A DNA stretch of 64,000 nucleotides from Fibrobacter sp. (lineage in GTDB: Bacteria; Fibrobacterota; Fibrobacteria; Fibrobacterales; Fibrobacteraceae): positions 1-64,000 of the forward strand of contig JAKSIH010000007.1 in NCBI GenBank assembly GCA_024398935.1, read 5' to 3'. Position 1 is the first letter of the stretch; the number at the start of each line of letters is the position of its first letter. The position numbers and the translations under genes are program-made. The notes under the pieces are model-generated. The model saw only the letters and a list, made by a program, of their open reading frames with translations. It was not told the origin of the DNA and did not search any database. This document shows positions 5,089 to 64,000 of the stretch, piece after piece.

Positions 5089-5973
5089 TTAAGCAAACTT
5101 CTCCATGCAATCCAGGAGGATGTAAAGCATGGGCGCCGTCAGGTAGAAGGAGTCGCAACGGTCCAGGACGCCACCGTGGCCAACAAACAGGTTACCGGAA
5201 TCCTTGGTGCCACTCCAGCGCTTGAGGGCGCTCATCAGAAGGTCGCCAGCCTGACCGGAAATTGCAATGAGGAGCCCTAGGACGCAGCCCTTTACGATGT
5301 CTATCTGGACATTGAAGGCAGACAGTGCGGCAGTCTGGCTAGACCAGTAGGCCACCCAGGCCACCGTAGCCAAGGTGCCCGCCACAGAGCCTTCCCAAGT
5401 TTTCTTGGGGCTGATGCTGGGAGCGAAGAGATGTCGGCCGAAGGGCCCCTTGCCAGCGGCGAACTTTCCGAAGAAGTAGGCCACGGTATCACAGAGCCAC
5501 ATGGAGGTCATCACCAGAATAAAGGCATAGCAATGTTCCAAGCCCTGTCCGTTACCCATCATGAGAACGTTCATGCCGCCCCAGAGGCCAACATACAGGG
5601 GGGCAGCCAGATGAAGCACCAACCAGGGGAACAGATTTTCGATGTTGACCTTGGAATAGGCAACGCTGATATACCCGGCAAAAATGACCAGGCAAGCCAT
5701 GCCCACCACGCAAGGAACCGGCGAGGAAAGTCCAAAGAAGCCACCCTTGGACAGAGCCCATGCTAGAGTCAGGGCAACGGTCGCGATGAAGGAGAATACC
5801 CGCATGTCGGGACCCTGGTACATCTTGCGGACCATGGACGCCCATTCCCAGGCGCCAACGCCACCCAAAAAGCACATCAGGCCTATACGGGAAAAGTCGT
5901 TGAACCACAAAAGGCCAAACACAACGGGAATGGCGATAAAGGCTGTAATTAATCGCTGAGCTAAATTACTCAT
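5089..5973 (-). CDS. cdsA: Phosphatidate cytidylyltransferase
   Basis: Makes CDP-diacylglycerol from CTP and phosphatidic acid, the precursor of membrane phospholipids. The 294-residue product is hydrophobic with about seven or eight membrane segments. The family signature sits near the C-terminal half: SISPKKTWEGSVAG followed by the D-LLMSALKRWSGTKDSGNLFVGHGGVLDRCDS region with its conserved Lys, Asp and His. It overlaps the end of uppS by 8 bases and is preceded by AAGG six bases before ATG, consistent with translational coupling in one operon. Confidence 0.96.
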   Translation of the reverse strand: MSNLAQRLITAFIAIPVVFGLLWFNDFSRIGLMCFLGGVGAWEWASMVRKMYQGPDMRVFSFIATVALTLAWALSKGGFFGLSSPVPCVVGMACLVIFAGYISVAYSKVNIENLFPWLVLHLAAPLYVGLWGGMNVLMMGNGQGLEHCYAFILVMTSMWLCDTVAYFFGKFAAGKGPFGRHLFAPSISPKKTWEGSVAGTLATVAWVAYWSSQTAALSAFNVQIDIVKGCVLGLLIAISGQAGDLLMSALKRWSGTKDSGNLFVGHGGVLDRCDSFYLTAPMLYILLDCMEKFA

Positions 5974-6676
5974 GGAGGACCTTGCCGAAGCGGCGTTCGC
6001 GAGTGTTGAAGAACTCCACCGCTTTCATGAATTCTTCCTTGGTAAAGTCGGGCCAGAGAGTATCCGTTACATAGAACTCGCTGTAGGCGGCCTGCCAGAG
6101 AAGGTAGTTGGAAAGTCTGAATTCGCCACCGGTACGGATAATGAGATCCGGATCGGGAGCACCCTTCAGATAGAGATTTTTTGCAAAAAGGGTTTCATCG
6201 ATGTCATCGACATTCAGAGTCCCTGCGGACACCTGGGAAGCAATGGACTTGACCGCCTCCACGATTTCCTGGCGACCACCATAGGAAATGGCCAGGTTCA
6301 GCTGCATCCCGGTGTTATTTGCGGTAACATCGATTGCAGACTGAAGGCTTGCACGGGGCTTTTCCGGCAAGCGGTCCATATTGCCGATGACAGTCAGCTT
6401 CACATTCTTTTCCATCAGGTCGGGAATTTCCTTGACCACCATCTCGATGAGAAGGTTCATGAGGTAATTCACTTCCTTGGAAGGGCGTCCCCAGTTTTCG
6501 GAGCTGAACACATACAAAGTCATGTGTTCCAGCTTCAGGTTCACGCCCATTTCCACGGCATCGATAGTGGATTCGGTCCCCTTGCGATGGCCGAAGAAAC
6601 GTTCCAGGCCGCGGCTCTTGGCCCAGCGGCCGTTACCGTCCATGATGATTGCAATATGTCGGAGCTGATTTGCCAC
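5966..6676 (-). CDS. uppS: Undecaprenyl diphosphate synthase (isoprenyl transferase)
   Basis: Condenses isopentenyl diphosphate with farnesyl diphosphate to the C55 lipid carrier for cell-wall synthesis. The 236-residue product shows the cis-prenyltransferase motifs: HIAIIMDGNGRWAK near the N-terminus with the catalytic Asp, YVFSSENWGRP in the first half, and DLIIRTGGEFRLSNYLLWQAAYSEFY near 180-205. The start codon is GTG at 6676, chosen because it gives the family's usual N-terminus and has AAGGG seven bases upstream. It lies in the frr-uppS-cdsA operon. Confidence 0.96.
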   Translation of the reverse strand: MANQLRHIAIIMDGNGRWAKSRGLERFFGHRKGTESTIDAVEMGVNLKLEHMTLYVFSSENWGRPSKEVNYLMNLLIEMVVKEIPDLMEKNVKLTVIGNMDRLPEKPRASLQSAIDVTANNTGMQLNLAISYGGRQEIVEAVKSIASQVSAGTLNVDDIDETLFAKNLYLKGAPDPDLIIRTGGEFRLSNYLLWQAAYSEFYVTDTLWPDFTKEEFMKAVEFFNTRERRFGKVLHE

Positions 6677-6717
6677 GCTTTAACCCTTGATAATCCCGAT
6701 TGACAGCAAACTAAGGA

Positions 6718-7251
6718 CTAGACCTTAAGGATGTCGGCTTCCTTGGCGGCAAGGAGAGCGTCGATCTGAGCGATAGCCTTGTCGGTCGCCTTCTGGATTT
6801 CGTCCTGCTGCTTCTTGGCTTCGTCTTCGGGCATTTCCTTGTCCTTCTTGATGGCGTCGTTTGCATCGCGGCGGATGTTGCGGATGGCAACGCGGCCGTC
6901 TTCGGCATGCTTGCGGGCAATCTTAGCCAGTTCCTGACGACGTTCGGTAGTGAGGATCGGAAGAGAAACGCGGATAGAGTTACCATCCTTCATGGGAGTA
7001 AGGCCGATGTTTGCAGCATAGATGGCCTTTTCGATGAGATCCACGATGGTCTTTTCCCAAGGAGCGACGAGAAGCATGCGCGGTTCCGGAACGGAAACCT
7101 TGGCCACCTGGGAAATGGGAGTCGGGGTGCCGTAGTAGTCGATACGGATGTCATTGAGAATTGCGGGGGAAGCCTGACCTGCACGGATCTTGGAAAATTC
7201 ACGTTCGGTAGCTTCGATAGCCTTAGCCATTTTTTCAGAATAATCTGCCAT
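6718..7251 (-). CDS. frr: Ribosome recycling factor
   Basis: Works with EF-G to split post-termination ribosomes. The 177 residues begin MADYSEKMAKAIEATEREFSKIRAGQASPAIL and contain the family's PISQVAKVSVPEPRMLLVAPWEK and GLTPMKDGNSIRVSLPILTTERRQEL stretches, ending with the long charged helix. An AAAGG ribosome-binding site precedes the ATG. It sits between pyrH and uppS, the usual bacterial order. Confidence 0.97.
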   Translation of the reverse strand: MADYSEKMAKAIEATEREFSKIRAGQASPAILNDIRIDYYGTPTPISQVAKVSVPEPRMLLVAPWEKTIVDLIEKAIYAANIGLTPMKDGNSIRVSLPILTTERRQELAKIARKHAEDGRVAIRNIRRDANDAIKKDKEMPEDEAKKQQDEIQKATDKAIAQIDALLAAKEADILKV

Positions 7252-7364
7252 AATAAAACCTTTAATTGATTGATAATTGATAATTGACGATTGATAATTA
7301 TAAATAATCGCGGCAAAGCCGCCTGCCTAATAATTATCAATTATACATCATCAATCATCCATTG
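7252..7364. repeat. AT-rich ttgataattga repeats between frr and pyrH
   Basis: Repeated words ttgataattga / attgacgattgataatta at 7262-7305 and their inverted counterparts at 7328-7360 flank a GCGGC-aaa-GCCGC hairpin at 7310-7322. No U-run follows the hairpin, so it is a weak terminator at best. Confidence 0.6.
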
Positions 7365-8072
7365 TTAACAATGTACCAGTGTTCCTAAATTACCTTCGAC
7401 GGCGGCCTGAGTCAAGCAGCCCTTTTCCATCTTGAACACGAAAATGGGCATATTGTGTTCCATGCACAGGGCAACCGCAGCGGTGTCCATCACCTTAAGT
7501 CCGCGGGCGATCACTTCCTGGTAGGTAATGTCGTCGAAGCGGGTGGCGGTAGGATCCTTCATGGGGTCGGCGGAATAGATGCCGTCCACCTTGGTCACCT
7601 TCATGATCACGTCACATTCGCTCTCGATGGCGCGAAGGGCGGCGCAGCTGTCGGTGGTGAAGAACGGATTGCCGGTACCTGCGGAGAAAATCACCACGGA
7701 ACCGTTTGCGAGAAGTTCAATAGCACGGCGACGGTTGAAGAATTCGCAGATGGGTTCCATACGGATGGCGCTCATGACCACAGAGTTGATTCCCTGCTTG
7801 TCCAGTGCGTCCTGCATGGCAAGACCATTCATTACAGTACCGAGCATTCCCATGGCGTCACCCTGGGCACGGTTCATACCACCGGCACTGGCGCTTACGC
7901 CACGAATCATGTTGCCACCGCCAATGACCAGGGCTACACCTACACCTTTGCGAACTACGTCTGCAATTTCTGACGCCATCTCGTTCAGGATATCGTTGTC
8001 GATTCCGTGACCCTTGGCGCCTGCAAGAGCTTCTCCGCTCAACTTGAGCAAGACTCTATTAAACTTTGCCAT
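7365..8072 (-). CDS. pyrH: UMP kinase
   Basis: Phosphorylates UMP to UDP in pyrimidine nucleotide synthesis. The 235-residue amino-acid-kinase-fold protein starts MAKFNRVLLKLSGEALAG (phosphate-binding loop), and shows ALVIGGGNMIRG, the UMP-binding MDALDKQG-like region (MQDALDKQGINSVVMSAI), and SAGTGNPFFTTDSCAALRAIE typical of bacterial PyrH. GGAG lies seven bases before ATG. It is downstream of tsf, beyond a terminator. Confidence 0.97.
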   Translation of the reverse strand: MAKFNRVLLKLSGEALAGAKGHGIDNDILNEMASEIADVVRKGVGVALVIGGGNMIRGVSASAGGMNRAQGDAMGMLGTVMNGLAMQDALDKQGINSVVMSAIRMEPICEFFNRRRAIELLANGSVVIFSAGTGNPFFTTDSCAALRAIESECDVIMKVTKVDGIYSADPMKDPTATRFDDITYQEVIARGLKVMDTAAVALCMEHNMPIFVFKMEKGCLTQAAVEGNLGTLVHC

Positions 8073-29027: not shown

Positions 29028-29094
29028 GGAAAAATACCCCTTTTGGGGCGGAAAAAAAATATCCGTAGAGAAAATCCCATGGACAGTTTGTCCA
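29028..29094 (-). promoter_or_regulatory. Operator TGGACAGTTTGTCCA (29080-29094) plus -7 box TATTTTTCC (29028-29036)
   Basis: A perfect palindrome TGGACA-GTT-TGTCCA; distance 51 bp. Serves the GH2 gene. Confidence 0.82.
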
Positions 29095-55230: not shown

Positions 55231-55314
55231 CTAGCCGTAAATCAGCCCCAAGGCAATCGCGAGAACGAAGAATACCGCGATTTGCTTGACAATAACCATT
55301 TCATGACGATCCAT
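55231..55314 (-). CDS. Small membrane peptide, 27 residues
   Basis: The reading frame starts MDRHEMVIVKQ and continues with one hydrophobic segment (IAVFFVLAIALGLIYG). GAGGAG lies seven bases before the ATG. It starts 14 bases after the CE6 stop codon and ends before a good terminator, so it is probably the second gene of that transcript. Too short for family assignment; a single-pass inner-membrane peptide is the simplest reading. Confidence 0.6.
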   Translation of the reverse strand: MDRHEMVIVKQIAVFFVLAIALGLIYG

Positions 55315-55328
55315 AGAGATTCTCCTCT

Positions 55329-56993
55329 TTACTTTGCGTTACGGACAATAAAGTTCTTGACGCCGGGAATACGCACCAGGTAGACGCCCTGCTTCTGGGC
55401 AGTAGCCTTGCTTACGCGGTTTCCACGCATATCGAAGTACTGGGCTTTTTCGAGATTCAGCGCAGCGCCTACAGACAGAGTCCGGCCAACAGCATCCGAG
55501 CAGCCTTCGCAAGGAACGGGGTCAATCACCGGGTCTGTTACCACAGGATCCTTTTCCGGATCCACGCCGGTCTGTCCAGAAACCTTCTTGAACTCCACAT
55601 AGTCAATGTCGATCCAGGAGTTGGTGATTTCAAGCTTCAGTTCGTGTTCGCCAGCCTTGAGGGTAGCCTTGCCGCCGCTTACTGTGGTAAATTCGCCAAA
55701 GCCCTTACCCTCGTTAACGAGGTCCTCGCCAATCTTCTTATCGTCGATGTAGAGAGCAAAGCTGCCGGTGCCATTGTCGCCAGCCACCAGAGCGGAAATC
55801 TCATAGTCACCATCTTCAGCGACCTTCACGGAATACTTCATCCAGTCGCCCTTCTCGCAGTAACCCACCACCATACCCATATTGGGCTGGTAAATATCTA
55901 CGTCATCCTTACGGAGGATTCCGCCTTCGTTACCCTTGTTGTTATCGTGATAGGCAACTTCGGCACCGCCCTTGTTATAGTTTTCAGCCTGGACCTTGCC
56001 CGGGATTTCAATGACATCCACGTAGGGACCGTATTCTTCAGGAGGTTCATCGGGAACTACGGAGTTTTCCGGATTCACAAGGTCCACTGCCGGAGCGTTA
56101 GGGTCGATGGTCTTGTCGATAAGCTTCAGCATTTCAGAAGCGTAACGCTTGCCCAGTTCAATGACACCTTCGCGACCAAAGTGGTAGGGGTCCTTGCCAT
56201 TACCCTTCAGGCCCTTGGAGGATGCCAGGCCGAACTTCTTGAAGTTGTTCTTGAGCATGGCGATGCCCGGATTCTTGCTGGAGCAGCAGGCGCCAGATTC
56301 CTGGAGCATTTCGCCTGCAACAAAGGGAACATCATTCTCGTTCAGGCCGAGAGCGTCGATGACGTCCTTGTAGGTCTTGTAAACGGTTCTGCGCCAGTTG
56401 TCGTCAACGCCGTCAGATTCGCCCTGATGGAAAATGAAGCCCTTGATGACGCCCACCTGCTGAGCCTTCTTGGCAAGTTCCACGATACGTCCCGGAGGAT
56501 TGTTGTCGTAATCCTTGGGCCAGCCCCAGGACATAATGTCCTTGCCGTCGCCTTTGAAGTAAGATTCGTACTGGTCCTTGTCGAAGGCGCGGATACTTAC
56601 GGCACCGATGGCCACCGGAATAATACCCACGGTCACACCCGGAAGGGAATCCACCATGGCGCGGCCAAAGTAGTCCGCCGGAGAGAGCTGCTCAAAAGCA
56701 TGGAACATGGGGGGAATTGCCGGATACCACTCGCCCATCTTGATGGACTGATTGGTTTGGCCCTTACGGCTGCTTGCATTTGCCGTATGGGAGGCAAGCA
56801 TCAGGAAATTCTTAGGATTGGTCGCCTGGTCTACAGAGGGAACGATTTCGCCGTTACCCGCCATATTGGACTGACCGTAAGCGATATAAATATGAAAATT
56901 CGGGTTCGGAGCGGCACTTGCACTTGCCGCAAATAAGGAAAGGCCAAATGTCATGGAAGCTACAGCGTAGCCCAACTTCTTCAACACACCCAT
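55329..56993 (-). CDS. Secreted CE6 acetylxylan esterase with CBM6
   Basis: Removes acetyl groups from xylan. 554 residues: signal peptide to about 28; SGNH-like CE6 domain about 30-300 with nucleophile Ser42 in YGQSNMAGNG, FHQGESDGVDDNW (block III-like) and the late His in PYHFGREGV. CBM6 second subtype about 325-470 (QAENYNKGGAEVAYHDNN), tail ends GVYLVRIPGVKNFIVRNAK. Adjacent to a second CE6 gene; a tandem CE6 pair working with a GH10 xylanase is known from F. succinogenes S85 (Axe6A/Axe6B). Confidence 0.92.
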   Translation of the reverse strand: MGVLKKLGYAVASMTFGLSLFAASASAAPNPNFHIYIAYGQSNMAGNGEIVPSVDQATNPKNFLMLASHTANASSRKGQTNQSIKMGEWYPAIPPMFHAFEQLSPADYFGRAMVDSLPGVTVGIIPVAIGAVSIRAFDKDQYESYFKGDGKDIMSWGWPKDYDNNPPGRIVELAKKAQQVGVIKGFIFHQGESDGVDDNWRRTVYKTYKDVIDALGLNENDVPFVAGEMLQESGACCSSKNPGIAMLKNNFKKFGLASSKGLKGNGKDPYHFGREGVIELGKRYASEMLKLIDKTIDPNAPAVDLVNPENSVVPDEPPEEYGPYVDVIEIPGKVQAENYNKGGAEVAYHDNNKGNEGGILRKDDVDIYQPNMGMVVGYCEKGDWMKYSVKVAEDGDYEISALVAGDNGTGSFALYIDDKKIGEDLVNEGKGFGEFTTVSGGKATLKAGEHELKLEITNSWIDIDYVEFKKVSGQTGVDPEKDPVVTDPVIDPVPCEGCSDAVGRTLSVGAALNLEKAQYFDMRGNRVSKATAQKQGVYLVRIPGVKNFIVRNAK

Positions 56994-57019
56994 TAGATAC
57001 TCCTTGAGGTTCTACAAAC

Positions 57020-57086
57020 CTAAAGATATCCCCTTTTAGGGTGAAAATTGACAGCCCGGGGCGAGAACTCATGGACAATATATCAA
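57020..57086 (-). promoter_or_regulatory. Operator TGGACAATATATCAA (57072-57086) plus -7 box TATCTTTAG (57020-57028)
   Basis: Distance 51 bp. Serves the CE6 gene at 55329 and the small peptide. Confidence 0.82.
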
Positions 57087-57090
57087 CAGC

Positions 57091-57119
57091 AAAAAGGGCA
57101 AAAACCGAAGTTTTTGCCC
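57091..57119 (-). terminator. Terminator after second CE6 gene
   Basis: Perfect 10-bp stem GGGCAAAAAC / GTTTTTGCCC with loop CGAA; TTTTT follows on the minus strand. Confidence 0.9.
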
Positions 57120-57146
57120 AAATTCCGCAGTTTTACCACAAACCGT

Positions 57147-58769
57147 CTACTTTTCGTTACGCACCACGAATGTTTTTGCCCCCGGAATGCGAACAAGGAA
57201 GGCGCCCTGCTTCTGGGCAGATGCCTTGCTAATGCGATTGCCGGCCATATCGAAATACTGGGCATTATCCATGTTCAACGCATCGGATATCCTGAGACTA
57301 TTTCCAATGGCGTCTGGATTTTCAGAACTACTGGATTCCGGCGTCGGCTCCGTAGAGGAAGATGATTCCACCGGGGCATCCACTTTCTTGAATTCCACAT
57401 AGTCGATGTTCACCCAATCTACTTCAATCTGTATTTTCAGATCGTAGTCACCGGCCTTCAGGGTCACCTTGCCGCCGCTAATATCTTCGTAGGTATCGTA
57501 GTCGGGCCCCTTCTTGGAAACCATGGTCTCGCCAATCTTGTCATCACCCAAGTAGACAGAGATGGCGCCGGTTCCGTTGTCGCCAGCCAGGCGGCCAATC
57601 ACTTCGTATTCGCCATCAGCTTCCACATGAACGGAATACTTCAGCCATTCGCCCTTCTGGCAATAACCTACAGCCATGCCCATACCAGCCTTATAGATAT
57701 CCACGCCGTCACCGCGGTATTCATCGCCCTGGTTCTTGCTATCCATATCGGAATAGGCAACGCCCTGACCGCCCTTGTTGTAATCTTCGGCCTGGACCTT
57801 GCCAGGAATCTTGAACACCTCGCCATAGGGGCCATATTCTTCGGGCTTTTCGCTACCTGCAGAACCGCCACCATACAGAGGAACACTTACAGAGGGCGCG
57901 CTTGGGTCAACAGTCTTGTCAATCAGTTTCAGCATTTCGGTGGCATAGCGCTTACCCATTTCGACATAACCGTCATGGTCAAAGTGCAGGCGGTCGCTCT
58001 GCATGCCCGTCCCCTGGGATTTGGCAACGCCGAACTTTGCAAAATACTTGGAGAGGCCGTTTACGCGGGTGCTCATGCCGTGACAGGCGCCATTGTAAAC
58101 CATCTCACCGGCGACAAAGGGCAATTCCTCCTTAATGCCCAGGTCGTTACGCATGTCGTTATAAGTTTTCTGGACAATCTGCTCCCAGTTACCCATGCCG
58201 CCATCAGTTTCTCCCTGATGGAAAATGAAGCCCTTGATGACACCCACTTCCTGGGCCTTCTTGGCCAGATTGATGATGGCCGCGTAGTCATTGCCCTGGG
58301 AATCGTAATCCTTCGCCCAGTTGGCAAGCCAGCTTTCGGAAGAATTCACATAGCTCTGCCACTGAGCCTTATCAAACAGCTTGATGGAGGCGCCACCCAC
58401 AGCCACGGGAATAATACCGATGGTCACATTGGGCATTTCCTTAGCCATGGTCTTTCCGAAGTAGTCTGCCACAGAAAGGCCTTCCTGGCAATGGAACATA
58501 GGGGGAACCGCCTTGGCCCACTGGCCCTTGGCAAGCTTGATGCTGGTGCCGCCCTTACGGGAACCGCAGTCAATGCCCGAAAGCATGACGAAATTATCCA
58601 CCGGATCCTGGTCGCCAGTCTGAATAGGACCTGCGCCAGCCATATTGCTCTGTCCGTAGGCGATATAAATGTGGAAATTGGGATTGGGGGCCGCTTCGGC
58701 AGTCGTCGCCAGCATGGAAAGCCCAAAAACGCAACAAGCCGCGCCGGCAAACTTGCGGAACAAATTCAT
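57147..58769 (-). CDS. Secreted CE6 acetylxylan esterase with CBM6 (second copy)
   Basis: Paralogue of the neighbouring esterase. 540 residues: signal peptide to about 27; CE6 domain about 30-300 with Ser41 in YGQSNMAGAG, FHQGETDGGMGNW and His in RLHFDHDGYVEMG; CBM6 second subtype about 320-460; Ser-rich linker (ESSSSTEPTPESSSSE); tail ends GAFLVRIPGAKTFVVRNEK. It is the only CBM6 gene without the palindromic operator. Confidence 0.92.
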   Translation of the reverse strand: MNLFRKFAGAACCVFGLSMLATTAEAAPNPNFHIYIAYGQSNMAGAGPIQTGDQDPVDNFVMLSGIDCGSRKGGTSIKLAKGQWAKAVPPMFHCQEGLSVADYFGKTMAKEMPNVTIGIIPVAVGGASIKLFDKAQWQSYVNSSESWLANWAKDYDSQGNDYAAIINLAKKAQEVGVIKGFIFHQGETDGGMGNWEQIVQKTYNDMRNDLGIKEELPFVAGEMVYNGACHGMSTRVNGLSKYFAKFGVAKSQGTGMQSDRLHFDHDGYVEMGKRYATEMLKLIDKTVDPSAPSVSVPLYGGGSAGSEKPEEYGPYGEVFKIPGKVQAEDYNKGGQGVAYSDMDSKNQGDEYRGDGVDIYKAGMGMAVGYCQKGEWLKYSVHVEADGEYEVIGRLAGDNGTGAISVYLGDDKIGETMVSKKGPDYDTYEDISGGKVTLKAGDYDLKIQIEVDWVNIDYVEFKKVDAPVESSSSTEPTPESSSSENPDAIGNSLRISDALNMDNAQYFDMAGNRISKASAQKQGAFLVRIPGAKTFVVRNEK

Positions 58770-58920
58770 ACAACACTCCTCTTTTTACCCAAACACCGCC
58801 TTAAATATACTTTAATATTAAACTAAAATCACAATTCTTACACACCTATCTTTTAATTGCAAAAACACACTGCAGAAAAAAAAGAAAAGCCCCAAAAAAA
58901 TTCAACGCCCTCTAGTGCAT
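58770..58920 (-). promoter_or_regulatory. Promoter of second CE6 gene, no operator
   Basis: TATATTTAAG at 58800-58809 fits the -7 box. At the place where the operator should be centred (about 58860) the sequence is TTAATTGCAAAAACA, which does not match. Confidence 0.6.
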
Positions 58921-58953
58921 AAAAAAGGAACACCCCGATTGCTCGGGGCGTCC
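58921..58953 (-). terminator. Terminator after GH30 gene
   Basis: Stem CCCCGA / TCGGGG extended by GGA/TCC with small mismatches; TTTTTT follows on the minus strand. Confidence 0.87.
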
Positions 58954-59011
58954 TTTGGTATTTGGTGTTTTGGTTTGGGACTTTTTACCGCATGGGTAGC
59001 GCCTGGAGCAA

Positions 59012-61192
59012 CTACTTTACGGAAACTTTTTTCATCAGACCGTTAGCGGACTTGACAATGTACACACCGGCATCCTTGACCAGGTTTGCAGTAGCCTTCT
59101 TCAAATCCTGGGGCATTGCCAGAACCTTACCCAGGAACTGACCGTTCAAGCTAAATACTTCGTAATCCTGAGCCTGGGCCATTTCGAAGTGAACATCGCG
59201 AATTGCATCGGGATCCTTGTCAGTTGCAACGGGATCCTTGTCAGTATTGGGATTTTCCGGATCAGTTACTGCAGGATCTTCAGGATCCACAACCGGTTCC
59301 GGGTCGGTAGCATTCTTACCCTCGACAAAGGTGAAGTAATCCACATCCATCCAGTCGCCTGTGACCAGGAACTTCATCACATGCTTACCAGCGGTGAGGG
59401 AGACATTCACCTGGACCTTGCCGAATTCCTCGAAGTCGCCTTCAGTTGCGGTTACAGTCTTCGGAACTACGATAGTATCGGAGAAAGCCTTATTGTCCAT
59501 GAACATCTGGAAGCTTGCGGTACCGTTGCTGGAAGCCACATAGGCAAACATGGTGTAGTCGCCCGCCTTCTTTACATCCACGGTGTATTCCAGCCATTCG
59601 CCAGCCTGGTTGTAACCGATAACCTTGCCGAACTTCTTTTCGTAGATGTCAACGCCAGTATCCTTACGGTAGTCGCTGTTGCCGTGATTTTCGGGATCGT
59701 TGTCATTGTAGGCAATATTGCTGTTGCCGTTTTCGTCCTTGCCGGAGCCGGAAACATCAAAGTCTTCCGCTTCAATCTTACCCGGAATTGCCCAGGCCTT
59801 GCCGCCGAAAGGTTCCTGAGGAACAACAACCTGGGGGCCAACGCCAACCAAGGTCACGATACAGTCCTTATTGGTAGCGCCGGATTCCATCTTGATGGTC
59901 ACGGAACCATTCTTTGCTTCCACCTCGCCTTCGTACTTGGCGTTTTTAGCCTCGGAAGTAGTGTACACATGGAAGGACTGGATGGTAGAATTGGGAACAT
60001 TCACCGTAACGGTCTTGCCATTCTTGTAGTCGCGGTTTACGAGAACCACCGTAGTGGTATCGCCATCGGCACTCTTATAGGCAGATGCGTAAACATGAGT
60101 TTCGGGATTTGCTGTAGCGCCAACGCGGATTGCACCGGGGCGAACAAAGCGGGCAAACTGAGAAAGAATGTAGCCGCGCTTGGAAATCTTACCGATTTCG
60201 CCGGAAGGAATCTGCAACTTGTTGCCGAAATCCTTTTCCATAATCAGGCCGTAGCAACGACGGATGTACCACCAGGTGTACTGGCTGAAGTTACCCACAA
60301 CCATGGCACGGTGAATTTCGTAACCCACGTCCATTGCACGGACAGTGTCCACCTTGTAGGCATTAGCCTGGTCACCGGTACCCATCACGGTACGCCAGTA
60401 GTTACCGCTGCCCTGGCTTTCGGTGTAGTGTTCGGTCATCCAGCGCTCCACCTTCTTCTGGTCAGCCAGAGAGTAGGCAAACCAGGAGTCAGCAGTCTTT
60501 GCATCGCTAGCATAAAAATGAGCGCCAAGAATATCCCAGTTCTTAAGGGCGTTGGCATCGTTCAAGACATTGTCGTAAAGCTTCTTCTGGTAGGCAAAGG
60601 ATTCGGTGGAAATCACCTTGGTTCCATGCTTACGCATCTGACCGGCATAGTTCTTGGTGAAGTTGTAAATTTCATCTACAGACCAGCAAGCCCATTCAGA
60701 GCACCAGTCCGGTTCGTTACTGATGGAAAGGCCATACAGGGGAACGCCCTGGCCCTTCATGTATTCAGCAAAGCTGTTCAGGTGATCCACATAATTCTGG
60801 TAGTTGCTTGCGGCAATATGCTGGTTACCACCTGCGTACTGGGAAGTCCAGGGGGTCGCGTAAAGGATAAAATCATCACCAGCGTATTTCTTGGCCCACT
60901 TGGCAGCCTGGACTTCCTTACCGAAGTCATTCTTGTTGCCATTTACCGGAATACGGAGGGTGTTAAGGCCCAAGGTTCCGTCGCCCGTGCCGAAAGCGAT
61001 CTTTGCATCGGCTTCAGAGAGGCCTGCACCGCCCTGCCATGTATTGTGGACCATGCCACCGAAACCGCGAATCACCTGATGTTCTTCGCTCAGGTTGACA
61101 TTAACTGTAGAAGCGTTTGCAAGGCCAAACAGACCTGCGACAAGGCTTGCGCCCAATGCGATGCGGCTAAAGCCGTTCTTTAAATTCTTCAT
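59012..61192 (-). CDS. Secreted GH30 glucuronoxylanase-type enzyme with CBM6
   Basis: Predicted to cut xylan next to methylglucuronic acid side chains. Start at 61192 (MKNLKNGFSR, 726 residues); the ATG three codons earlier overlaps the GGGA ribosome-binding site. Signal peptide to about 27; opens with HQVIRGFGGM; acid/base Glu160 in SISNEPDW, nucleophile Glu254 in WMTEHYTE. WWYIRRCYGLI (307-317) matches the Arg/Tyr motif by which GH30 subfamily 8 enzymes hold the glucuronate. Beta side-domain to about 460, CBM6 about 470-620, DPENP-type linker, tail ends GVYIVKSANGLMKKVSVK. Confidence 0.93.
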   Translation of the reverse strand: MKNLKNGFSRIALGASLVAGLFGLANASTVNVNLSEEHQVIRGFGGMVHNTWQGGAGLSEADAKIAFGTGDGTLGLNTLRIPVNGNKNDFGKEVQAAKWAKKYAGDDFILYATPWTSQYAGGNQHIAASNYQNYVDHLNSFAEYMKGQGVPLYGLSISNEPDWCSEWACWSVDEIYNFTKNYAGQMRKHGTKVISTESFAYQKKLYDNVLNDANALKNWDILGAHFYASDAKTADSWFAYSLADQKKVERWMTEHYTESQGSGNYWRTVMGTGDQANAYKVDTVRAMDVGYEIHRAMVVGNFSQYTWWYIRRCYGLIMEKDFGNKLQIPSGEIGKISKRGYILSQFARFVRPGAIRVGATANPETHVYASAYKSADGDTTTVVLVNRDYKNGKTVTVNVPNSTIQSFHVYTTSEAKNAKYEGEVEAKNGSVTIKMESGATNKDCIVTLVGVGPQVVVPQEPFGGKAWAIPGKIEAEDFDVSGSGKDENGNSNIAYNDNDPENHGNSDYRKDTGVDIYEKKFGKVIGYNQAGEWLEYTVDVKKAGDYTMFAYVASSNGTASFQMFMDNKAFSDTIVVPKTVTATEGDFEEFGKVQVNVSLTAGKHVMKFLVTGDWMDVDYFTFVEGKNATDPEPVVDPEDPAVTDPENPNTDKDPVATDKDPDAIRDVHFEMAQAQDYEVFSLNGQFLGKVLAMPQDLKKATANLVKDAGVYIVKSANGLMKKVSVK

Positions 61193-61230
61193 AATGCACA
61201 TCCCATTTTACGGTAAACCAACCCGTTAAT

Positions 61231-61297
61231 CTAAAGATATCTTCCTATACTCCAATCAGAAATACTCCAAAAGCAAATCCCGTGGATAATTTATCAA
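61231..61297 (-). promoter_or_regulatory. Operator TGGATAATTTATCAA (61283-61297) plus -7 box TATCTTTAG (61231-61239)
   Basis: Distance 51 bp. Serves the GH30 gene. A run of twelve C/ten A follows the operator on the plus strand. Confidence 0.82.
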
Positions 61298-61310
61298 CGC
61301 CCCCCCCCCC

Positions 61311-61343
61311 AAAAAAAAGAGAACCTCCCGGGTTCCCGGGAGG
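61311..61343 (-). terminator. Terminator of the orphan operator-controlled transcript
   Basis: Stem CCTCCCGG / CCGGGAGG with loop GTTC, followed on the minus strand by TTCTCTTTTTTTT. It lies about 55 bases beyond the -7 box of the orphan promoter. Confidence 0.85.
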
Positions 61344-61399
61344 CTTCTGTTTGGATGTGTTTATGGAGATCGTTGGGCAATGTTTCAGCCCTACATTTA

Positions 61400-61465
61400 C
61401 AAATGTACCCCTTTTTTCAGCGGTTAATACAAGCAATTTCATCATTTTTATGGACAATCTGTCCA
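61400..61465 (-). promoter_or_regulatory. Orphan operator TGGACAATCTGTCCA (61451-61465) plus -7 box TACATTTG (61400-61407)
   Basis: A perfect palindrome (extended ATGGACA-atc-TGTCCAT) and a perfect -7 consensus at exactly 51 bp, but no gene follows: only about 50-85 bases to the terminator at 61311-61343. Confidence 0.75.
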
Positions 61466-61498
61466 TGGGCCCATCGCAAAAATCCCCCGCAAACAAAC

Positions 61499-61538
61499 CA
61501 AAAAAAACAGAAACATCCCAGGAAAAATCCCAGGATGC
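61499..61538 (-). terminator. Probable terminator after last GH43 gene
   Basis: Weak stem CATCC / GGATG (61514-61537) enclosing two direct copies of cccagga; TTTCTGTTTTTTTT follows on the minus strand. Confidence 0.5.
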
Positions 61539-61569
61539 TTCCGATGTCTTATGCTTGGAATTTCAAGAA

Positions 61570-63897
61570 CTAGCGAATGGAACGAACCTTGGAAACCATG
61601 CCCGTCGCGCGGTTACGGATCAGGCAAACGCCCTGGCCCTTTGCAGCGGAGGTCTTCTGCCACAAGGCAGATGCTTCAGCCATGTTCCTTGCCTTGACGC
61701 TTTCGAGCTTGTTACCCTTCAGGTCGAAAACATCGAACTGCATCATGGCAGGAGCGTGCAGCACAACCTTCTGGCCGGCAATAGCGTCGGGAAGGGAATC
61801 GCTAGGTGTGGGATCCTTCGGGTCAACCACGGGATTTTCAGGATCTTCAGAACCTTCAGGGTCCTTCACGATGGGATCCGGGTCCTTTTCGCCCTTGTTC
61901 ACGAAGTTGATGTAGTCGATGTCCATCCAGTCGCCTGTGACGGTAAAGCGAAGGACATGTTCGCCCTTGGTAAGCTTCACGTCGGCACTTACCTTGTTGT
62001 AGTCATCGTAATTCTCTTCGCCAGCGGATGCTGCGGGAACCGCGATTTCCTCGGTAATGTCCTTGCCGTCCATAGAGAGCTGGAAACTGGAAGTGTTATT
62101 TGCGGAAGCAACAGCGGCAAACAGGGTGTAGTCACCGTCAGCGGCAACATTCACAGTGTATTCCAGCCATTCGCCCTTCTGGTTGTAACCTACGACAACG
62201 CGGTTGTTGGACTTCTTGTACAGATCCACGCCGGTATCCTTGCGGTAATCGCTGTCACCGTGGTTTTCTGCATCGTTATCGCTATAGGAAGCGTATTCAT
62301 CGCCGCGGCCAGTGCCCGGAATGTCGAAGTCTTCCATCTGGATGGTGCCAGGAATTGCCCACGGCTTGTTTCCTTCATTGAAGGCCTTCTGCGGTTCCGG
62401 AGGAGTCTTGCCGCTACCTTCGAAGCCCCAGCCCTTGATAGCCATGGTGGAGTCCTGAGAACCCTTGAACACCAGGAACAGCTGCTCCACAATGCCGGAG
62501 AGGCCATCTACATCGCAGGAAGTTTCTGCGAAGGTGTTCTTGGAACCGGTCTTCTTGAGGGTACAGGAGCCAGCCAAGGTACCCGTTGCAGAGCCCTTGC
62601 GGATTTCAATCTTGTTGTTGTCGGCAGTGCTTGCCGCTTCTACGGTGAAGCCCGTTGCACCCTTGCCGAAATCTACACCGGAAACACGAATCCAGGATTC
62701 GCTACGGCTAGCCAGCGGCAGCAGGAGGCTACCGGAAACCTTGCCCGGAGCATAGAGAGAACGGCTACGGACACCCTTCTGCTTGGAGCTGGTGAGAGCC
62801 GGATACCAATCGTAGGGGTCGAAATTTTCAATCTGCTTCGGGCCATCGTTAGTGCAGACCACCTGCTTGATGGTACCGTCGGCGTTGTAGAACATTTCGT
62901 CTACGGAAACGCTACGATGATATCCCGGATCCGGATTGGGTTTACCGTCATCGGCAGGAATGATTTCCAAACCATCGTGGCCCTTGGCAATACGACGGTC
63001 ATGATAAACTACATAGGAATGGCCCTTGAATTCGGCAATACCGTGATGGTTGTTGTTGCCGTTGATGCTCTTGCCATTCATGCTGGGGTCACCAAGGATA
63101 GTTCCCTTCCAGGTAAAGGGGCCCATGGGGCTAGAGCCCATACCATAGTCGATGGTAGGTGCGCCCTGCTGCCAGCCAGTACTGTAGGAGAAGTAGTAAG
63201 TGCCCTTGTGCTTATGGATGTAGGAAGCTTCCAGCATCTTACGAGTAGAAAGGCCATTCACCTTCACATGAGCGCCAGTCCCCACCGGAGCAGTCTTTGC
63301 ATCGTTCAGCTTCACAACGTCGAAGTTGTCGGTATTGGGACGGCTAGTGCTTTCGCCGCCACCCCAGGTAACATAGGTGGTACCGTCGTCATCGATAAAA
63401 ATACCCGGGTCAAAGCACCAGGCTACACCATCGCAGCCAATAAGGCCGTTTCGACCGCCCACAAGCTTATCGCTGCCATTGCCTACCGCATTGGACCAGG
63501 GGCCGGCCATGCTGTCGGCCTTGATGTAACCGATACCGCCGCCACCGCCATCGGGGAACACGATATAAAGCTTACCCGTCTTGGGGTCAGCCGCAATGCC
63601 TGCAGCCCAAATATCGTTGATACCGCTTACCTGACGAGCGTCATAGATAATACCGAAGTCCGTCCAGTTCTGCATATCCTTAGAACGGAAACCGTAAAGA
63701 GCCTTGATATTGTAGCCAGTTGCGTTATATGCAGCCGGATCGTCAGAGTCCGTGATGATATAGAAGTATTCATCATCGGCAGCAGCACCCGGGTCAGCCA
63801 GGTAATGATAGGTGGAAATCGGATTGTAGGCCAAGGCGCTTGCACCCAATCCAAAGGCAGCCGTAAGAGTCAGAGCTCTCCTAAAAACCTTTTTCAT
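61570..63897 (-). CDS. Secreted GH43 enzyme (arabinofuranosidase type) with beta-sandwich and CBM6
   Basis: 775 residues: signal peptide to about 23; GH43 propeller about 25-345 with Asp35 (YLADPGAAADDE), Asp163 (CFDPGIFIDDDG) and Glu223 (MLEASYIHKHKGTYYF); beta-sandwich about 390-505 (ESWIRVSGVDFGKGATGFTVEA, Cys pair) of CBM6-like type; CBM6 first subtype about 525-680 (QMEDFDIPGTG); tail about 715-775 ending GVCLIRNRATGMVSKVRSIR. This domain order (GH43, sandwich, CBM6, Fibrobacter tail) resembles the characterised F. succinogenes arabinofuranosidase, but activity cannot be fixed by eye. Confidence 0.9.
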   Translation of the reverse strand: MKKVFRRALTLTAAFGLGASALAYNPISTYHYLADPGAAADDEYFYIITDSDDPAAYNATGYNIKALYGFRSKDMQNWTDFGIIYDARQVSGINDIWAAGIAADPKTGKLYIVFPDGGGGGIGYIKADSMAGPWSNAVGNGSDKLVGGRNGLIGCDGVAWCFDPGIFIDDDGTTYVTWGGGESTSRPNTDNFDVVKLNDAKTAPVGTGAHVKVNGLSTRKMLEASYIHKHKGTYYFSYSTGWQQGAPTIDYGMGSSPMGPFTWKGTILGDPSMNGKSINGNNNHHGIAEFKGHSYVVYHDRRIAKGHDGLEIIPADDGKPNPDPGYHRSVSVDEMFYNADGTIKQVVCTNDGPKQIENFDPYDWYPALTSSKQKGVRSRSLYAPGKVSGSLLLPLASRSESWIRVSGVDFGKGATGFTVEAASTADNNKIEIRKGSATGTLAGSCTLKKTGSKNTFAETSCDVDGLSGIVEQLFLVFKGSQDSTMAIKGWGFEGSGKTPPEPQKAFNEGNKPWAIPGTIQMEDFDIPGTGRGDEYASYSDNDAENHGDSDYRKDTGVDLYKKSNNRVVVGYNQKGEWLEYTVNVAADGDYTLFAAVASANNTSSFQLSMDGKDITEEIAVPAASAGEENYDDYNKVSADVKLTKGEHVLRFTVTGDWMDIDYINFVNKGEKDPDPIVKDPEGSEDPENPVVDPKDPTPSDSLPDAIAGQKVVLHAPAMMQFDVFDLKGNKLESVKARNMAEASALWQKTSAAKGQGVCLIRNRATGMVSKVRSIR

Positions 63898-63942
63898 ACA
63901 TCACTCCATACATAAATTCCGCACCGTGCGGAACTAACCATT

Positions 63943-64000
63943 CTAAATGTATGTCCATTCCAACCTAAAATATTACGCGTAAAAGCAATCCTTATGGACA
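63943..64000 (-). promoter_or_regulatory. Operator half TGGACA (63995-64000, cut by window end) plus -7 box TACATTTAG (63943-63951)
   Basis: If complete, the palindrome would be centred at 64002, 51 bp from the -7 box, as in the others. Serves the GH43 gene at 61570. Confidence 0.65.

Follow-up and report, generated by a model that had tools for sequence, protein, structure and literature searches.

The DNA analysed, a stretch of 64,000 nucleotides referred to here as the window, is included in contig C67 of a 2.92-Mb assembly that is 82.6% complete and whose nearest relatives are Fibrobacter genomes, many of them from the rumen or from horse faeces. On the minus strand, genes for CBM6-bearing enzymes form a cluster. 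According to Pfam these include GH43, GH30-like, SASA acetyl-esterase-like and alpha-galactosidase enzymes, among others; a GH39-like match was weak. The enzyme families suggest that the cluster is a xylan regulon.

Two of these genes, both on the minus strand like all the features that lie between them, flank the interval of interest. The upstream neighbour (61570..63897) has GH43 and CBM6 domains in Pfam, belongs to the paralogue class designated y below, and was the sister of the G011 gene in a quick tree of catalytic domains. It is followed by its terminator, T1 (61508..61543). The downstream neighbour (59012..61201) is a GH30-like gene with CBM6 above the Pfam cut-off and Glyco_hydro_30C slightly under its own. 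This gene has its own promoter: the operator-promoter pattern places a separate operator, TTGATAAATTATCCA, at 61283..61297 and a -7-like element, TATCTTT, at 61233..61239.

Between T1 and the GH30 operator lies a second set of signals. The operator TGGACAGATTGTCCA (61451..61465) is a perfect palindrome that agrees with TGGACA-N3-TGTCCA at 12/12 arm positions. A -7-like promoter element, TACATTTG (61400..61407), stands 43 nt from it and is followed by a hairpin of the form GGGC-N9-GCCC (61375..61391), which we read as the leader hairpin of a lost gene, by a G-poor 3' element, GATCTCCATAAACACATCC (61353..61371), and by a strong terminator with its T tract, T2 (61311..61345; stem, 61345-61322). 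The original prediction of an orphan operator-promoter that runs into a terminator with no gene between them was confirmed. It had also described some 50 to 60 bases lacking a start codon with a ribosome-binding site; there are 54 bases from TACATTTG to the terminator stem, and their sole ATG, in AAATGTAG, has no ribosome-binding site and is directly followed by a stop codon. No coding fossil was found when the interval was read. On the plus strand just past T2 (61300-61320), homopolymers of about 11 C and 8 A adjoin one another and are a possible source of assembly error.

Operator-promoter family of the cluster

With up to three mismatches allowed, the operator word matched the window 20 times, compared to a mean of 1.79 in 100 shuffled sequences. 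The gap from operator to -7-like element was 43 nt at 15 of the 16 intergenic cluster operators that have such an element and 44 nt at the other, a count that omits operator-like sites (9 to 10 matches) within coding regions or without an element at this spacing. In the loci fetched from relatives, a search that permitted these two gaps alone found 43 nt at 197 of 223 sites and 44 nt at 26. A strict composite pattern had 43 matches in five genomes versus none for a reversed control; nine were in the window genome, all of them on C67. One operator pair, in G031, was missed by the operator matrix and recovered with the consensus. We take the element, TAnnTTTG, to resemble the Bacteroidetes promoter element.

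An enzyme-gene start codon lies within 200 nt downstream of 15 of the 16 cluster operator-promoters, and the exception is the one at 61465. That site has the 12/12 palindrome and TAnnTTT at 43 nt but no start codon within 200 nt. By its sequence and spacing, the orphan promoter belongs to the regulon family. It had been called the best palindrome of all, and it is indeed perfect, but it is tied with an equally perfect site at 29094. Similarly, the promoter element was placed exactly 51 bp away; the fixed spacing stands, but the gap measured from the operator end is 43 nt, and 51 is approximately the distance from the operator centre to the element.

The 43-nt (or 44-nt) gap is constant across the genus, in the cluster at 13000-67000 as well as in relatives, which suggests an activator that contacts RNA polymerase in a rigid geometry. 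The exact spacing also provides a sharp rule for identifying members of the regulon.

Elsewhere in the cluster, a 27-codon open reading frame, MDRHEMVIVKQIAVFFVLAIALGLIYG, with a ribosome-binding-like sequence, AGAGGAGA, lies directly after the SASA esterase gene (55231-55314, minus strand). Similar peptides were present in L111 and in L115 (12996), where the reading frame stands behind its own operator-promoter. The frame probably encodes a conserved small membrane protein of the regulon. The 3' flank of the SASA esterase gene was the best-conserved flank in a comparison of L083 with L110 (53/60).

The 3' element and the GH43 genes of relatives

The bases before T2 had been likened to the 3' ends of neighbouring enzyme genes, and this was borne out: ACACATCC plus a hairpin follows three other genes of the window (44419, 25063 and 21818) and GH43 genes of relatives. 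Among genes of xylan loci, ACACATCC was found in 21 of 174 3' flanks, versus 0/55 control genes. The G-poor element was found in 32 of 167 cluster-gene 3' flanks, compared to a mean of 3.28 in shuffled sequences, whereas the 55 control genes from the same genome had none. Such an element, poor in G and rich in A and C, separates the stop codon from the terminator in about one-fifth of xylan-locus genes (for example, 44419, 25063, 21818 and 61359).

The element together with T2 aligned with the sequence right after the GH43 stop codon in G011 (85% over 59 nt; E value, 1.35e-8), and positions 61400-61312 aligned with the DNA after the GH43 stop codon in G040 (74% over 88 nt; E value, 3.64e-8) and in G033, G035, G034 and G030 (E values, 3.7e-5 to 7.3e-4). 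These alignments identify the 3' end of the window unit as orthologous to GH43 3' flanks. The orphan operator-promoter piece matched operators alone in the fetched loci and resembled no particular gene's promoter; T1 had no clear homologue there, with short partial matches at most (E ≤ 0.05). Thus, what the window genome has in addition to G011 and G040 is T1, the operator and the promoter, situated between the GH43 stop codon and the usual 3' end.

Upstream of the GH30 orthologue, relatives have GH43 genes of three main classes, which by catalytic-domain comparison with the window gene are 81 to 95% (y), about 60 to 65% (z) and about 40 to 45% (x) alike and agree with the quick tree, although the assignment of some long rows is unsure. 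Their order was x-y-z, z-y, y-z, x-z, x-y, z alone or y alone. Tandem GH43 genes have been gained and lost in this slot across the genus, and a third GH43 gene often occupies the exact position of the window unit. A look in relatives for an extra CBM6 gene at this place had been suggested. Many relatives do have one, in the form of two or three tandem GH43 genes, but G011, G040 and G037, the three closest with shared gene order, do not: in these genomes y, with one operator, immediately precedes GH30. Either a gene was cleanly lost there or one was gained only here, and because the closest relatives lack the extra gene, the identity of a lost gene is not fixed.

Both x (64151-66442) and y are present in the window genome. 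The third GH43-CBM6 gene, z, was considered as the gene lost from this spot and was dropped as a candidate. It is found on another contig (C75:53990-56086) with its own operator, beside tRNA-Leu(gag), and it adjoins the tRNA-Leu gene in G011 and G040 as well, so a recent loss of z from here is unsupported; in G033 and others the relative of z adjoins GH30. The tails of y and z show exchange: in the GH43 gene of L034 (G033; 5129-7387), a z-class catalytic domain is joined to a C-terminal tail of the y type, which is what recombination between tandem paralogues would produce.

Hollow units elsewhere in the genus

The fetched loci were scanned for further regulon promoters without a gene, here called hollow units. 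Of the distinct operator-promoter sites, 259 had sufficient downstream sequence, and 17 of these were flagged by a terminator within 210 nt: nine without a gene, seven before ordinary genes, and one (L115 at 12885) before a tiny open reading frame. The nine gene-less sites were the window unit and those in G031, L074/L048, L082/L056, L083, L100, L115 (at 4179), L259 (G011) and L262 (G033). Seven more gene-less units (L084, L085, L086, L087, L110, L118 and L121) were missed by the scan and found by synteny or operator search. The resulting 16 units, a number that is not a rate because the loci were fetched non-randomly, around the GH30 gene and operators, represent six contexts. Besides the window, these are a unit before GH30 in G031, one between x and z in L115, one before a glycosidase-like gene in G033, one on contig C24 of G011 with the type of 3' element that follows window genes 13927 and 16097, and the units of a Fibrobacter succinogenes-like clade, in the slot between z and the next gene. 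The units outside the window share its anatomy and appear to be independent in origin.

In L112, L109 and L119 the clade slot holds a complete GH43 gene, w (38.9 to 41.5% to y), with the same operator and the same 3' element; w is partial at contig ends in L101 and L105. L121 retains both ends of the GH43 coding sequence with the middle gone (N-terminal, TVFGHGCVALVLADTPLSNYHY versus TVFGLGFAAPVLADNPLSSYHY; C-terminal, GHKKFMVSSAR versus GRKKFMVSSAR), L118 retains the last GH43 codons, and in L083 and L110 the signal-peptide region at the N-terminus persists in decayed form, next to a similar junction. The exact w element was found in 18 of 80 genomes, six with the reading frame and 12 with a hollow unit in which the operator lies 109 to 199 nt upstream and TAAATT is at +43. 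Since the search was for the exact element, its invariance in these 18 genomes is by construction, and the claim of invariance rests on the units found by synteny or operator.

One such comparison is that of L083 with L110, which share the fossil. Their operators (15/15) and 3' elements (20/20) are identical, versus 28/43 in the 43-nt spacer, 55/91 in the fossil, and 0.65 and 0.63 at 4-fold sites of z and GH30, respectively. If neutral sites are 0.65 alike, 35/35 identity has a chance of about 3e-7 by our own arithmetic, with the borders of the 20-nt element set after the alignment had been seen. Over three such pairs, live x, y and z genes had 3' flanks that were 0.18 to 0.75 alike and operators that, where read, were 15/15; the hollow unit has thus kept its operator no less well than a working gene does. 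In nine hollow units, the 3' hairpins consisted of 100% standard pairs, 6 of 19 pairs had changed on both sides, although some of these changes may predate gene loss, and none of 500 shuffles reached this result. Identity of operator and element amid neutral divergence suggests selection on a unit without an open reading frame, and argues that the clade unit is still transcribed and kept. This argument would be weaker if an intact gene had been lost recently and independently; for L083 and L110, the shared fossil speaks against such losses. The unit under apparent selection in the clade is different from the window unit.

Remnant and small-RNA readings of the window unit

The promoter and terminator of the window unit look intact and are compatible with the short RNA of 80 to 90 nt that had been proposed. 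The orphan promoter should still fire under inducing conditions and yield an RNA of about 80 to 85 nt ending at T2; with an inferred start, the predicted transcript has about 84 nt (61312..61395, minus strand). However, intact signals reveal little about function, because a recent scar would look alike. The 84-nt strand folds with -29.2 kcal/mol (z, -4.27), mostly by way of the terminator. The leaders of 15 gene-bearing units of the cluster also fold better than their shuffles (mean, -6.13 versus -4.68; 0/100). No Rfam match up to an E value of 1 was detected in 56000-64000. Neither the duplex energy with regulon leaders (38 of 200 shuffles as good) nor the number of complementary 7-mers (206 of 1,000 shuffles) exceeded expectation. 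An antisense RNA, or 5'-3' pairing, was considered because ACACATCC is the exact complement of GGATGTGT, which stands before several start codons, and was unsupported by both tests; GGATGTG was present in 2 of 174 called 5' flanks, with start calls that place some copies within the gene. No rRNA was found in the incomplete assembly when the anti-Shine-Dalgarno end of the 16S rRNA was sought.

The window unit is most likely the remnant of an enzyme unit that has been lost, probably a tandem GH43-CBM6 gene. Synteny favours the other half of the earlier proposal, a promoter and terminator left after deletion of an enzyme gene, and so do the orthology of the 3' element with its terminator and the parallel cases in relatives, where hollow units contain gene fossils. 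The unit has the geometry of the regulon, and the gene is absent at this site alone; in six relatives, T2 and the element match what follows the GH43 stop codon; and a third GH43 gene is frequent in the slot, with hollow units in five other contexts. A tandem GH43-type unit would have been deleted between its 5' leader hairpin and its 3' untranslated element, which left the operator, the promoter, the leader hairpin, the 3' element and the terminator in place. The promoter would still respond to the regulator of the regulon, and a short leader-terminator RNA would be released and degraded. In the window genome this RNA is most probably a by-product; the unit may have been retained for an RNA function, a possibility for which the succinogenes-like clade offers more support than the window does. 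The absence of a coding fossil from the window, and a promoter stretch that resembles no particular gene's beyond the operator, count against a remnant.

A promoter-terminator module that was inserted or gene converted where no gene had ever been would suit the absence of both gene and module from G011, G040 and G037, the nearest genomes on the gene tree. Such an event is quite improbable, however: the genome itself offers no source for the T1-operator-promoter stretch, the parallel units of relatives carry gene fossils, and several relatives have a GH43 gene in the slot. The unit lies shortly before GH30 and shares its strand, which raises the idea of an attenuator or second promoter of that gene, with transcription from the orphan promoter halted at T2 unless there is read-through. 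This can hardly be expected, since GH30 is served by an operator-promoter of its own with the standard spacing, the sole one in G011, G040 and others, in which T2 simply follows the GH43 stop codon. Alternatively, the unit could encode a small RNA with a function in the xylan regulon, regardless of how it arose: this RNA would comprise the 5' hairpin, the single-stranded G-poor element and the terminator, would be produced along with the enzymes, and would act through pairing or through titration of an RNA-binding factor. The sRNA-like fold and the enrichment of the element after cluster genes are in keeping with such an RNA, as are the clade units, which keep operator, element and fully paired hairpins while neutral parts and the 3' flanks of live genes diverge more. 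For the window unit it nevertheless seems unlikely: a search of 79 other genomes of the genus found only pieces of the unit, with no orthologue and no sign of conservation of the RNA, and the pairing and Rfam searches gave nothing in its favor.

The remnant reading may be extended, tentatively and with considerable doubt, to the genus: dead genes of the xylan cluster might repeatedly be hollowed into units without open reading frames and kept as small RNAs coupled to the regulon, perhaps as sponges that sequester a factor recognising the G-poor element of live enzyme mRNAs. The window unit would then be young, and the succinogenes-like unit old and under purifying selection.

Comparison with known systems

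Bacterial small RNAs derived from 3' untranslated regions or pseudogenes consist of a hairpin, an open stretch and an intrinsic terminator. The window unit resembles them in this anatomy; membership is not claimed. If selection keeps such units, they would be small RNAs born from dead enzyme genes with their regulation already in place.

The xylan cluster of Fibrobacter succinogenes S85 includes GH43-CBM6 genes (Fisuc_1762 to 1764) and CE6 genes (1766 and 1767) (PMC3079729), and the accessible part of that description points to the same enzyme families in a comparable order, with no mention of the operator, the 3' element or hollow units. Hollow units were likewise not recognised in the accessible parts of the Fibrobacter literature on operators and promoters or on small and noncoding RNA, including PMC3079729 and PMC6204037, and no dedicated small-RNA study was found in the literature searched for this phylum.

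A further parallel is with the scars that gene decay leaves as pseudogenes, in which, as here, the coding sequence is gone and the signals remain; L121 even retains fossil ends. If the units are scars only, they document how rapidly tandem enzyme genes turn over and caution that no gene need follow even a perfect promoter of the regulon. Unlike such scars, several hollow units of independent origin were cut right at either end of the coding region, and the ends of the unit look preserved by selection in one clade, so that remnants of this kind may have become small RNAs.
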